A DNA stretch of 64,000 nt from Bdellovibrio sp. KM01 (GTDB taxonomy: Bacteria; Bdellovibrionota; Bdellovibrionia; Bdellovibrionales; Bdellovibrionaceae), in the NCBI RefSeq assembly GCF_013752535.1, contig NZ_CP058348.1:806001-870000 (forward strand). The letters are read 5' to 3'. The notes under the pieces were generated by a model, which ran no database searches, had not been told where the DNA came from, and saw only the letters and a list, made by a program, of their open reading frames with translations. The translations under genes were made by a program, and so were the position numbers. Below are positions 21,060 to 26,019 of the stretch, one piece after another (the stretch's first letter is position 1; every line of letters starts with the position of its first letter).

Positions 21060-21647
21060 ATGGTGCGGACTTATGAGCGTGCAAAGTTATTTGCGATTTC
21101 TGTCTTTATCGCCTTTCACTTAATGTTAATTTTAACAGCTTCCTTTCCGGATCGCAGTGAGCTCGGACGTCTGATTCTGCGGACCTTCGGCGATTATTTT
21201 GATTTTGTGGGATTGGAGCAGCCTTGGAGTATGTTCGCTCCGAATCCCATGTCCTTAAACTCTTACGTCGAAGCGGAAATTCATTTTACTGACGGCAGTA
21301 AAGAGAAATGGTCTTTGCCTCGTCCTACACAAATGAATGGCGCGGATAAAGTGATTGGCGGCGACCGCTATCGCAAATTCACCCAAGAGTATTTGATGCC
21401 TGAGAAAAACGAAGAGATCTGGTTTGATGTCGCTCGCTATGTGACTCGTCATGTGAACAAGATCGAGGCGACGGGGCGTAAGCGAGAGATCGAGAAGCTG
21501 CAATTCTTCCGCTATTACAACTATGTTGAAGACCCACGAAAATTCTTTGTTCGTCACGGTGACAAAGCCGGCGAATACAAAAAAGAAAGCGTGTTCTATT
21601 TCTATCCAGCAAAAAAGGGAAAGTATGAAGTCAGCAACAATAATTAA
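21060..21647 (+). CDS. Membrane-anchored partner of the HTTM protein
   Basis: A 195-residue protein with one N-terminal hydrophobic segment (about residues 10-28) and a mostly soluble remainder with LEQPWSMFAPNPMSLNSY. The WSMFAPNP motif is characteristic of small proteins encoded with HTTM-domain membrane proteins and of the soluble tail of some gamma-carboxylase-like proteins. AAGGGGAG stands before the ATG. The last 23 nt overlap the HTTM gene, so the two are translationally coupled and probably act together. The reaction is unknown. Confidence 0.72.
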   Translation: MVRTYERAKLFAISVFIAFHLMLILTASFPDRSELGRLILRTFGDYFDFVGLEQPWSMFAPNPMSLNSYVEAEIHFTDGSKEKWSLPRPTQMNGADKVIGGDRYRKFTQEYLMPEKNEEIWFDVARYVTRHVNKIEATGRKREIEKLQFFRYYNYVEDPRKFFVRHGDKAGEYKKESVFYFYPAKKGKYEVSNNN

Positions 21648-22566
21648 AAGTATTTGGGATTTCTTTTTTAAGCCTCAGCCGGTGGATAACTTAGGTTTGA
21701 TGCGTGTGTTGTTCGGGCTGCTTCTGCTGTTCAATTGGTACATGGTCTGGAGCTATCTGGATGTTTTCTGGGGAGTGGAGGGCTTGATCAGTTTGAAAAC
21801 CTCAATGGAGTACGGTTCATCTATTCGTTTCAGTCTGTTTGATTTCATGCCCAATGATCCCCGCGTGCCGGCATTACTTGCTTTGGTGAATCTGGTCGCA
21901 GCAGTGGGAGTGACCTTGGGGCTCTTTACTCGCACTTCCATGGTGTTGGCATTTATGACGTTGTTGTCTTTCCAGAATAGAAACGACTTTATTCTGAACA
22001 GTGGCGACATCGTTCTTCGCAATATTTTATTTTTCATGATGTTTTCAGCGGCAGGGAAAGCTTACTCTTTGGATCGCTGGTTTTATAATCTGCGCTTTGG
22101 TAAGTCGCAGGAACCGCTTATGGAACGACCTTGGGCATTACGTATGATTCAGATCCAATTTTGTGTGATCTATATCGCCACGGTCTTATTTAAAATCAAA
22201 GGCACGCATTGGGTGGATGGCACAGCCGTGTATATTGCCACGCGTTTAGAGGAGTTTGTTCGTGTTCCATTTCCTTTGTTGAACAATCTTGCCGTGATTA
22301 AATTCATGACCTGGTCGACGTTGCTTGTTGAACTCGCGATGGGAACGTTGGTGTGGTTTAAAGATTTGCGTTATTGGGTTTTGCTGGCCGGCATCGGTTT
22401 GCATATTGGCATTGAACTTGTGATGAGTATCCCAATGTTCGAGTGGGTGATGGTGGTAACGATGCTTTCATTAGTAGATCCATGGGATGTAATAAAGGTC
22501 GAAAGCAAATTGCGAATATGGTTTTCAAGAATTCGATATCGTTTCGGTAAGTTAGAAACTGTCTAG
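21625..22566 (+). CDS. HTTM-domain membrane protein (gamma-carboxylase-like)
   Basis: A 313-residue polytopic protein of the HTTM domain family, related to vitamin K-dependent gamma-carboxylase. Features are GLMRVLFGLLLLFNWYMV, an NDFILNSGDIVLRNILFFMM segment and about six further hydrophobic stretches. The ATG at 21625 is chosen from the AAGGGA site; an in-frame extension to 21523 lies entirely within the previous gene. Bacterial HTTM proteins have no established function; carboxylation or lipid-related chemistry is only inference. A terminator follows. Confidence 0.78.
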   Translation: MKSATIIKSIWDFFFKPQPVDNLGLMRVLFGLLLLFNWYMVWSYLDVFWGVEGLISLKTSMEYGSSIRFSLFDFMPNDPRVPALLALVNLVAAVGVTLGLFTRTSMVLAFMTLLSFQNRNDFILNSGDIVLRNILFFMMFSAAGKAYSLDRWFYNLRFGKSQEPLMERPWALRMIQIQFCVIYIATVLFKIKGTHWVDGTAVYIATRLEEFVRVPFPLLNNLAVIKFMTWSTLLVELAMGTLVWFKDLRYWVLLAGIGLHIGIELVMSIPMFEWVMVVTMLSLVDPWDVIKVESKLRIWFSRIRYRFGKLETV

Positions 22567-22589
22567 AGAAAAATACTCATTAAATACAG

Positions 22590-22620
22590 AGACCAAGCAG
22601 AAATGTTTGGTCTTTTTTTT
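22590..22620 (+). terminator. Rho-independent terminator after the HTTM operon
   Basis: AGACCAA (22590-22596) pairs with TTGGTCT (22607-22613) and is followed by T residues. It lies 23 nt after the HTTM gene stop. Confidence 0.85.
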
Positions 22621-22866
22621 TGCCATGAAACCCACGACTGAAACCGTTCCTGAAAGTTCCGCAATTAATTAAATCACGGAAAATTACAGATAAGTTTCTA
22701 TCCAACGATACGGCCTCCAAATAAGACTTTTCAGGAAATTTGCAGAATCTTGTGGGACACGCCGAATATTCACGGAAACTATGTGAATCATTTGGTACAG
22801 AGCTGGCGCGATTTTGTGAGTGAAAAAGAGAGAGAAAAGAGAACAAAGAACTTAAATGGAGGATGG

Positions 22867-25800
22867 ATGAGATCGCGTAAGAAGTTAGTTCTTGCCGCGG
22901 GAATTTCCCTTTTGGCGAATCCTACTTGGGCACAAATGGCGCAGTTACAAACTCCGCCGATCACGGCTCAAAAAATAAAACAGGATGTGCTGAAAGAGAG
23001 CAAAGTTTCCAAAGACAAGACGGGATCGGAAAAAGTTGTCGGAGTAACTCCTGATGGAAAAATTCGCATCGGTGTTCAAGAAGAAGAGTTTAGCGGAAAT
23101 TCGAGTGGCGGCTCGAAGGGCGGCTTCGACAATAAAGGAAGTTCAGGATCGAAGGGATCATTCGGTGGTGGAAGTGAACACGGAGGATTCGGTTCTTACG
23201 GAGATAAAGGTTCTTCGGGAGAACACGGTGGTTTCGATAGCAAAGGTTCAAAAGGCTCCTTTGGTGACAAGGGAGACTACGGAAATCATGGAACCGGTGG
23301 TTCCAAGGGTGATTTAGGTAATCGCGGTAACAGCGGTTCTAAAGGCGACTACGGTGATCGTGGTAACAGCGGCAGCAAAGGTGACTTAGGTAATCGCGGT
23401 AACAGCGGTTCTAAAGGCGACTACGGCGATCGCGGTAACAGCGGCAGCAAGGGTGATTACGGCAATCGCGGCAATAGCACTTCAAAAGGTGACTACGGCG
23501 ATCGTGGTAACAGCGGCAGCAAGGGTGATTACGGCAATCGCGGCAATAGCACTTCAAAGGGTGACTACGGCGATCGTGGTAACAGTGGCAGCAAAGGCGA
23601 TTACGGCAATCGCGGCAATAGCACTTCCAAAGGCGACTATGGTGATCATGGTTCCAAAGGCGACAAAGGCGATTATGGCAATCGCGGCAACAGTTCTTCT
23701 AAAGGTGATTACGGCGATCGTGGTTCCAAAGGAGACAAAGGTGATCGTGGAGAGCATGGCGGCTTTGATAGCAAAGGCTCAAAAGGCGATCATGGTGATC
23801 GTGGCGAAAAAGGCAACTACGGCGACAAAGGCGATCGTGGTGAACGCGGCGAACGTGGGGAAAAAGGCGACAAAGGCGATCACGGTGAAAAAGGTGAGTG
23901 TGGCCATCGTTGCGGATCTTCTTCGTACGGTAGTTCAACTTCGTATGGAAGCTCGACGTCCTATGGAAGCTATGGTAGTTCAACTTCCTACGGTGAATCG
24001 AATAGCTATGGAACGTCATCCACTTATGGCGACACAAGTACTTCGACTGTAACAACTTCAACTGGAAATCCTGATACTTCCACAGGTCCTCGTGATACGA
24101 GCACTTCGACAAGTTCAAGCTCTTCCAGTTCGAGCTCATCGTCTTCATCTTCGTCATCATCATCGACTGAAAGCACGTCCACTTCTACAAGTGAAAGCAG
24201 CTCCAGCTCTACTGGTGGTAAGAAAGAAGAGAAAAAGAATAGATTCAGAGCAAAATTGGAACCATTGTTCCACTTGGCTTTCGACTTCGGTTCTTACATC
24301 GTGAATTTGACTCCGCATGATGTTCCGCAACCAGCGGCTGTGGGTGTATCTTACGATCCACCATCTCAACAGACGTTGAAAACGGGCGATTATCGTGACG
24401 GCTTCCAAAAAACTGTCTATGGCAGTATCGAAGTGGGTATCGGGGCGCAAGTTCGTTTCTGGTTCGACAATGCGACAGGCTTGCTGGATTACTTCTGGGG
24501 CTTCGTGGGTGTTTTGCCCGTTGTAGGTAAAGAAACAGCTTCGACACGTTACGCGAGCACTTTGGATAAAGCGCGCGCTATGGGTGGTCGTTGGTCAGTT
24601 CCAAAAGATGCAACCGATCTTGATAAATGGGATGCTGGCGACAGTATAACTTACGTCAGTTACGGTGGCGTGATCTTCTTGGCAAATGCTGGATTTGGTC
24701 CGGTAGGTATCGGTACTGCGAAATTAGCTCGCGGTTCCTGGGAAACTTACGTGGAAAAAGTCGGCGATCATATGGCCTACGTGAAAATGACAAGTGGTAA
24801 ACTTGAAAACTTGTCGATCTTCACAAGTGTCTCGATTATGTCGATCGGAAAAAACTGGTTCAACTCTGCGGATGATGGTTTCTCTTATCTGTTTGATTTG
24901 AGCACAGATACAGGTCGTAAAGCTTACGAAGACATGATTCGTGGTAACTCGTACGCATCTGAACAGCTTGCGACGAAAAAACCTATGAATTTGGTAGAGC
25001 TTGCGCCGGTGACGAAAGTTATGACTTTCAGAACTGTTTCGACAGGTCAAACTGTCAGCAAAGCGTTCGCGATTCCAATTATCTGGGACCGTGTGTTTAG
25101 TAAAGGTCGTGTACAGTCATTTACAACATCTGATTTGCACATCGAAAGAAACACAGCACGTGTACACTATGGTGTCTTTAATGAATCTGACGATTCTCGT
25201 TTCTGGTTTAAACACAGAGAAGAGGATTTCATGTTCACAGGCGCGAAATACTCGCTTGAAAATTGGGACAACAAAGAGCGCATAACAGGTATGTTCGGTA
25301 CCTACAGCTTCGCGTTCCGACATGAAGCAAGTAATGACGACAGACTAAGAAAAGGTTTGAAGGAACTAGTTCGTAAAACCGGTTTGAAACGTTTGATGAT
25401 CAATATCCCGGATAACTCTGCATTGGGTTATACAGGTGTTGAGTTCAACGCGAAAATGGGTGAAGAGAACACCATGCGTCTGATGACACTTGCACAAAGA
25501 ATGTCTGAAGACCAGTTCACGGCACGCGGTTTGGCATTGCATGAAATCTATTTCAACAAGGGTGGTGATCCTTGGGATATCTGCAAACTGCCAGGTTGTG
25601 AAATGAAGCAGCGTAAAGCGACAATTTCGGGTATGTCGAAAATGTGGCGCGCACTTCAAGTCATGAGCAAAACGATGACTGGTGATCCACGTGCATTCGC
25701 AACAGCCTACGGGCAGTTTGGTGAGGGAATGTCTACAAATCCATTCACTTTCCAATCAGCAGTTGCGATGGCAGGACCTGGGGTTCTTATCGACTTCCTA

Positions 25801-26019
25801 GTGGAAGGAACACGAATTTCCATGTTCTACAAACAGTGGGTGACGGATGCAGATGGTATGTGGGTTCCTGCGGAGAAAATGCCGGATTCAGATTTGATTC
25901 CGAAGTTTGATCCAAGAACTCGCCACTCGAAAATCCGTGGTATCATTATTGGCAACAATCCGGGAGATATCATGCCTCATGATACGATTCCGTTGATGCA
26001 GCCAGTAGCGTTCCAATAG
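22867..26019 (+). CDS. Secreted collagen-like repeat protein with large C-terminal domain
   Basis: A 1050-residue exported protein. The signal peptide ends in NPTWA before QMAQL. After about 55 residues comes a long Gly-X-Y region (nt about 23100-23905) rich in KGD, DRG and ERG, then a short GECGHRCGSSS block with two cysteines, a Tyr/Ser region of SYGSSTS type (to about 24040), a nearly pure Ser/Thr linker (about 24090-24220), and a C-terminal domain of about 590 residues with no family I recognise. GGAGG (22858-22862) fixes the ATG. Such proteins are surface or extracellular; adhesion or appendage function is inference. It is flanked by terminators, so it is monocistronic. Confidence 0.85.
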   Translation: MRSRKKLVLAAGISLLANPTWAQMAQLQTPPITAQKIKQDVLKESKVSKDKTGSEKVVGVTPDGKIRIGVQEEEFSGNSSGGSKGGFDNKGSSGSKGSFGGGSEHGGFGSYGDKGSSGEHGGFDSKGSKGSFGDKGDYGNHGTGGSKGDLGNRGNSGSKGDYGDRGNSGSKGDLGNRGNSGSKGDYGDRGNSGSKGDYGNRGNSTSKGDYGDRGNSGSKGDYGNRGNSTSKGDYGDRGNSGSKGDYGNRGNSTSKGDYGDHGSKGDKGDYGNRGNSSSKGDYGDRGSKGDKGDRGEHGGFDSKGSKGDHGDRGEKGNYGDKGDRGERGERGEKGDKGDHGEKGECGHRCGSSSYGSSTSYGSSTSYGSYGSSTSYGESNSYGTSSTYGDTSTSTVTTSTGNPDTSTGPRDTSTSTSSSSSSSSSSSSSSSSSSTESTSTSTSESSSSSTGGKKEEKKNRFRAKLEPLFHLAFDFGSYIVNLTPHDVPQPAAVGVSYDPPSQQTLKTGDYRDGFQKTVYGSIEVGIGAQVRFWFDNATGLLDYFWGFVGVLPVVGKETASTRYASTLDKARAMGGRWSVPKDATDLDKWDAGDSITYVSYGGVIFLANAGFGPVGIGTAKLARGSWETYVEKVGDHMAYVKMTSGKLENLSIFTSVSIMSIGKNWFNSADDGFSYLFDLSTDTGRKAYEDMIRGNSYASEQLATKKPMNLVELAPVTKVMTFRTVSTGQTVSKAFAIPIIWDRVFSKGRVQSFTTSDLHIERNTARVHYGVFNESDDSRFWFKHREEDFMFTGAKYSLENWDNKERITGMFGTYSFAFRHEASNDDRLRKGLKELVRKTGLKRLMINIPDNSALGYTGVEFNAKMGEENTMRLMTLAQRMSEDQFTARGLALHEIYFNKGGDPWDICKLPGCEMKQRKATISGMSKMWRALQVMSKTMTGDPRAFATAYGQFGEGMSTNPFTFQSAVAMAGPGVLIDFLVEGTRISMFYKQWVTDADGMWVPAEKMPDSDLIPKFDPRTRHSKIRGIIIGNNPGDIMPHDTIPLMQPVAFQ
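23302..23625 (+). repeat. Nine tandem 36-nt repeats coding a 12-residue collagen-like unit
   Basis: Nine consecutive 12-residue units follow the pattern SKGD(Y/L)G(D/N)RGNS(G/T). The Y-D and L/Y-N forms alternate, and three units end in Thr instead of Gly, which breaks the Gly-X-Y register. The DNA copies are nearly identical, so unequal recombination or slippage is expected. Looser Gly-X-Y units continue to about 23905. Confidence 0.93.

Follow-up and report, generated by a model that had tools for sequence, protein, structure and literature searches.

A collagen-like stalk is one of many interchangeable N-terminal parts of a domain family found across the Bdellovibrionota

In a 64,000-nucleotide stretch of Bdellovibrio sp. 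KM01 DNA (the window; NZ_CP058348.1, positions 806,001 to 870,000), an ATG-initiated gene encodes a protein in which a collagen-like Gly-X-Y region precedes a large C-terminal domain. Our analyses revealed that this domain represents a real, phylum-wide family, and that many interchangeable N-terminal parts precede it, of which the collagen-like part is just one. Our preferred reading, held at slightly below even chances, is that the domain is an outer-membrane barrel module anchoring the protein, with the N-terminal region displayed outside as a stalk. A preliminary description of the window had proposed a collagen-like secreted giant composed of a signal peptide, a Gly-X-Y region, a cysteine pair, a Ser/Thr-rich linker and a 590-residue domain of no known family. 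The gene and this order of parts are seen in the sequence (Table 1). "Giant" overstates a protein of this length, and "secreted" stands as far as the signal peptide, which is present and is the whole basis for the word.

Table 1. Features of the collagen-stalk gene and its product, in window coordinates
Feature	Position	Strand	Basis
Shine-Dalgarno GGAGG, 4 bases 5' of the ATG	22858..22862	+	sequence
Whole gene, 1050 aa plus stop	22867..26019	+	ORF
Signal peptide, residues 1-22, cut after ...PTWA and before Q, no lipobox Cys	22867..22932	+	by eye
Short N-terminal head, residues 23-90	22933..23136	+	sequence
Collagen-like Gly-X-Y region, residues 91-348	23137..23910	+	triplet count, Pfam Collagen
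Cys345 and Cys349, end of the Gly-X-Y run	23899..23913	+	sequence
Ser/Thr-rich linker, residues 350-452	23914..24222	+	sequence composition
Charged segment 5' of the domain, residues 453-460	24223..24246	+	sequence
C-terminal domain, 590 aa, residues 461-1050	24247..26016	+	sequence searches, AF2
Helical insert, strands 13-14, residues about 866-969, conserved FG and N-F-F motifs	25462..25773	+	alignment, AF2
Cys906 and Cys911	25582..25599	+	invariant in 21-row alignment
Palindromic terminator-like site, 3' of the stop codon	26033..26064	.	sequence

The signal peptide was read by eye as MRSRKKLVLAAGISLLANPTWA, followed by Q. The Gly-X-Y region contains 79 in-register triplets, counted in runs of three or more, and is underlain by a DNA repeat of 36/72 bp. 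Glycine occurs 81, 6 and 3 times in the three phases of residues 79-350, that is, in one phase of three, and the longest unbroken run comprises 26 triplets, a length that never exceeded 10 in 2000 shuffles. Pfam Collagen scores the region at 93 bits (cut-off 27.2), and no other collagen match was found in the whole genome. The two cysteines closing the run could possibly form inter-chain disulphides. The linker that follows (351-452) has about 100 residues, 70% of them Ser or Thr, including a run of 18 Ser, and an Asp/Glu/Lys-rich segment lies directly before the domain in most homologues as well. Besides the C-terminal domain, no anchor, lipobox or other, is visible in the protein. With about 79 triplets, a Gly-X-Y rod would extend for roughly 68 nm, more than the span of a periplasm.

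Searched with the window sequence alone, the C-terminal domain gave no family match in Pfam or NCBIfam and no match above chance among PDB sequences, and an alignment of 21 relatives likewise left it without a match in all three. By sequence, a known family was accordingly rejected as the identity of the domain, in agreement with the preliminary description. The homologue search with the domain alone that had been suggested there found it in 31 of 148 relatives and, by profile, in 93 of 369 Bdellovibrionota genomes from several families; the window's own genome holds one paralogue. The named records belong to Bdellovibrio, Pseudobdellovibrionaceae and one Oligoflexia MAG. A genome-contig scan with narrow patterns, our sole look at other phyla, matched Bdellovibrionota records only. 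Phage, plasmid and viral contig collections contained no match, and an origin from such elements was dropped. In the 21-row alignment, two cysteines in the C-terminal third of the domain are invariant, along with many glycines, and conservation is also strong in motifs such as GRKAYEDLIRGN. Three of the matches contain one or two in-frame stop codons (G193:C1:709619-711187, G191:C7:169131-170636 and G355:C161:11674-13323).

In all homologues read the domain occupies the C-terminus, whereas the part that precedes it differs widely. This part may be built of charged Gly-X-Y triplets, (GNN)n, mixed GVVG/GNN, GGSSSGGS, GNSNGNS, KDDHGGG or DMGDMG repeats, or of pentapeptide-like NNGNRNSGD repeats extending to 1200 residues; it may also be Pro-rich or nearly missing. 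Mapped onto a tree built from 65 domains, the stalk classes must change 21 times, against a possible minimum of 6, with at least 4 changes for the charged Gly-X-Y class and 5 for the GNN class, the classes having been assigned by a simple rule and seven rows relabelled by hand. In two close relatives, G006 (domain at G006:C1:2843313-2845070, minus strand) and G002, the domains are 97.8% identical, while the stalk is of the GNN type in the former and of the charged Gly-X-Y type in the latter. Such near-identical domains behind different N-terminal parts, together with the 21 class changes, indicate at the sequence level a constant module whose stalk is exchanged or rebuilt.

Other arrangements were seen among the homologues. 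Several Bdellovibrio genomes encode a second paralogue (L039-L044) whose N-terminal part consists of VPVTTTTIVDVPYTY repeats followed by ETHEEERTGTRQEER repeats, and four distant homologues (L090, L091, L092 and L108) carry about 180-1200 residues of pentapeptide-repeat-looking NNGNRNSGDYN repeats. In two genomes the orthologue is split within its GNN array (L146 with L055, in G016, 3331000-3343978; L147 with L050, in G007); the 5' half, with signal and GNN repeats, lies beside HTTM genes, and the domain-bearing 3' half is far off on the chromosome. This split at the repeat reflects either a rearrangement or a misassembly.

Given that KGD pairs are able to stabilise a triple helix that lacks hydroxyproline (PMC7824840), a collagen rod appears plausible in the window's clade. 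The 20 copies of KGD in the Gly-X-Y region would favour a triple helix, while the complete lack of proline and the existence of GNN and non-GXY orthologues would disfavour it. The domain family as such does not require a triple helix, because orthologues carry GNN and non-GXY stalks. A possible, if doubtful, account of the stalk, compatible with each of the readings of the whole protein considered below, is that the Gly-X-Y periodicity arose incidentally as DNA repeats expanded in a polar Gly-rich region that forms no triple helix and acts only as a flexible spacer. Orthologues with (GNN)n, GGSSSGGS, KDDHGGG or almost no repeats indicate that the triplet register is not conserved family-wide, and a stalk devoid of proline fits such a spacer; however, KGD is frequent, and charged Gly-X-Y triplets have been kept by four species of the window's clade, whose domains are 87-99% identical.

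The structure of the domain was predicted with AF2, as the preliminary description had also suggested. The window's domain was modelled with a pLDDT of 80.7 and a pTM of 0.77, and the same elements appeared in the model of a stalkless homologue with 28% identity (Bdellovibrio sp. qaytius); both models have a pLDDT of about 81 and a pTM of about 0.78, and are not fully independent, since their alignments, of 10 rows each, share rows. The window model has about 14 long strands in up-and-down order, mostly of 16-22 residues. Two helices follow strand 7, one follows strand 12, and a helical insert, about 105 residues long, precedes strand 14. Its turns on the stalk side, where the termini lie, measure 8, 2, 2, 3, 2 and 28 residues, and its loops on the opposite side 32, 29, 3, 37, 4, 5 and 109 residues. 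This alternation of short turns and long loops in the model is the pattern of outer-membrane proteins.

A Foldseek search of the PDB with the window model returned nothing below E 0.001 (best 0.0027, TM about 0.2), and its list, all above that value, consisted chiefly of outer-membrane proteins. When these matches were looked at again with VIA-align, OmpG came first (Z 13.4, 241 residues, with a large rmsd of 5.8), followed by autotransporter barrels (EspP, Hbp and BrkA rank among the best matches), by FapF and by others, nearly all of those listed being outer-membrane barrels. We therefore have fair confidence in a barrel-like fold for the modelled domain. The preliminary description held that membership of a known enzyme or porin family would speak against its view of the domain; by sequence there is none, and the predicted fold is nearest to outer-membrane barrels.

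Insertion of the modelled domain into a membrane has, in our judgement, about an even chance. In the alignment, most strands have a side on which at least four successive positions carry hardly any polar residues. No clear nonpolar side is seen for strands 7 and 8, and across the domain the nonpolar stretches do not all lie at one height; lacking a clear lipid-facing side on these two strands, the domain is a candidate for membrane insertion at most. Beyond the last strand the protein continues as a tail that ranges from a few residues to about 50, and no pore helix before strand 1 is predicted in either AF2 model. The most conserved helices would sit outside the cell if the domain were an outer-membrane barrel, and the parts of outer-membrane proteins outside the cell are usually variable. 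Amphipathicity calculated from sequence alone was dropped as a test for outer-membrane proteins; it did not separate the domain from shuffles, and the BBP2-like porin encoded in the window barely beat its own shuffles, so the test is uninformative.

We propose that the protein would be exported by Sec and that its C-terminal domain, present across the Bdellovibrionota, would be a hitherto unnamed beta-barrel module with about 14 strands, which anchors it in the outer membrane. The Gly-X-Y and Ser/Thr-rich regions would then form a long exposed stalk, surfaced through or alongside the barrel, like type V (autotransporter) proteins generally. In the window's species this stalk would be charged and collagen-like, and may be a trimeric rod that KGD stabilises and Cys345/349 close; the module of other species bears different stalks, rich in Gly/Asn, Pro or Ser. 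The conserved barrel module perhaps also exports these exchangeable stalks. Several observations stand against a barrel anchor, namely the weak Foldseek scores, the large rmsd, strands 7 and 8, the C-terminal tail, the lack of a predicted pore helix, the conserved helices on the far side and the 10-row alignments.

A barrel serving as a channel or receptor could instead hold its Gly-, Asn- or Pro-rich stalk within the periplasm, as a spacer between the outer membrane and the cell wall. The N-terminus does enter the model from the side with the short turns, the periplasmic one in outer-membrane proteins, and the Lys-Pro-rich part of the same-genome paralogue recalls periplasm-spanning regions. 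However, a rod made of 79 Gly-X-Y triplets would be longer than the periplasm, as would the repeat regions of homologues that reach 900-1200 residues, and rapid change and Ser/Thr-rich linkers are commoner in extracellular regions. Such a periplasmic stalk seems to us improbable, and we favour surface display because the N-terminal parts are exchanged, no other anchor is seen and the stalk would reach about 68 nm.

The main alternative dispenses with the membrane barrel altogether. The Legionella adhesin Lcl is a collagen-like protein whose C-terminal non-collagenous domain has no homology outside its group (PMC11162425). The protein of the window resembles it in having an N-terminal part, a Gly-X-Y stalk, of variable length in Lcl, and a C-terminal non-collagenous domain, in that order. 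A protein of this kind would be secreted, for example by type II secretion, and held with its N-terminus on the cell surface, so that a soluble C-terminal head on a trimeric Gly-X-Y stalk touches prey or surfaces. The order of a small N-terminal part, a stalk and a C-terminal globular domain is that of Lcl (PMC11162425), no lipid-facing side is seen on strands 7 and 8, and the conserved far-side helices with the invariant cysteine pair could form a binding site. Nevertheless, the predicted structure is a barrel of long strands that compares best with membrane barrels, an N-terminal anchor was not noticed, members without a stalk would be odd for a head on a stalk, and the constant part is the C-terminal domain rather than the stalk. 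Unlike that of the window protein, the Lcl stalk contains proline (GPQGLPGPKGD...), and Lcl has a C-terminal domain with DUF1566 and an N-terminal amphipathic helix; the window's domain has no Pfam match to DUF1566, and its predicted fold is barrel-like instead. We consider an Lcl-like arrangement unlikely.

Within the barrel-anchor reading, the variable N-terminal part of the window protein would be a surface passenger. Type Va autotransporters such as EspP, Hbp and BrkA share with this protein a signal peptide, a variable N-terminal part and a conserved C-terminal module, a barrel in the autotransporters and barrel-like by prediction in the window protein. They are marked by a 12-stranded C-terminal barrel, a protein end at the last strand and a pore helix. 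The domain of the window differs in its approximately 14 predicted strands, its 109-residue helical insert, its C-terminal tail and its lack of a predicted pore helix, and Pfam Autotransporter beta-domain matched neither the window protein nor the alignment of 21 relatives. OmpG is a 14-stranded porin of equal strand number; however, it has no sequence similarity to the window's domain, which is twice as long and has the stalk and the helical insert, and no Pfam or NCBIfam model places the domain in a known porin family, that of OmpG or another. In Burkholderia Bucl8 a collagen-like region, of variable repeat number, is attached to an outer-membrane efflux protein (PMC4565658). Both proteins thus combine a collagen-like region with an outer-membrane-type domain, but Bucl8 is a TolC/OprM-type OEP protein with its collagen part after the OEP domains, whereas in the window protein the collagen part precedes an unrelated domain. 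As judged by sequence, the family is neither of the Bucl8 type nor an autotransporter, although both kinds were already known.

Other fibrous proteins are more distant. The NCBIfam models of streptococcal Scl1 and Scl2 score the Gly-X-Y region, but this is a match to repeats only, and the Scl1, Scl2 and Lcl models remain far below their cut-offs (135 of 400, 129 of 325 and 113 of 500 bits, respectively); the window protein also lacks an LPXTG anchor. The mosaic adhesive trimers (MAT) of Bdellovibrio, intertwined beta-prisms, some with S74 domains, have been proposed for prey contact (PMC10769870). They are likewise fibre-like modular proteins, from the same genus, but the window protein has no Pfam S74 match, a comparison that covers S74 and not the MATs of other kinds. 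Collagen is mentioned neither in the MAT paper (PMC10769870) nor in the AlphaFold-Multimer paper, and a literature search on collagen-like proteins in Bdellovibrio found no paper chiefly about this genus.

The Bdellovibrionota are largely predatory bacteria, and the means by which such bacteria make contact with diverse prey have been explained only in part, most recently through MAT fibres and MIDAS adhesins. If our reading is correct, a phylum-wide module with interchangeable stalks and no family model would be a further candidate surface system. The protein may contact prey, neighbouring cells or surfaces; adhesion or prey contact is a plausible function, while a role in predation is a guess. 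The most far-reaching form of the proposal, a Bdellovibrionota-specific type V-like display family, whose 14-stranded barrel would both export and anchor fast-changing, exchangeable stalks (collagen-like, poly-GNN, pentapeptide-like or Pro-rich) for contact with prey or other surfaces, is speculative and, taken as a whole, rather unlikely. Moreover, proline-free Gly-X-Y and poly-GNN repeats would have arisen repeatedly within one gene family, which would offer a natural series for studying the sequence needs of a bacterial collagen-like rod.

The gene is probably transcribed alone, since the terminator-like site after its stop codon is matched by another at 22588-22615, 3' of the upstream HTTM gene. 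Its 5' neighbours are a gene that we take from its sequence to be ManC, a DUF5819-like gene (a match below the Pfam cut-off) and the HTTM gene; an AidB-like acyl-CoA dehydrogenase on the opposite strand, a trypsin-like protease and the BBP2-like porin follow on the 3' side. This order is partly common to other members of the genus, where the HTTM pair is not always there. Reliance on the DUF5819-like and HTTM pair was rejected as not obligatory, the pair being missing between ManC and the gene in two loci (L052 and L054), and none of the neighbours explains the function of the protein. The DUF5819-like and HTTM (gamma-carboxylase-like) genes, at 21060-22566 in the window, occur in duplicate, frequently as convergent or tandem copies, in several Bdellovibrio species (L049, L051, L146, L147 and L149). 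In G006 (L149), the acyl-CoA dehydrogenase, which directly adjoins the gene in the window, lies about 8 kb away from it, and the locus may therefore be an insertion hot spot.
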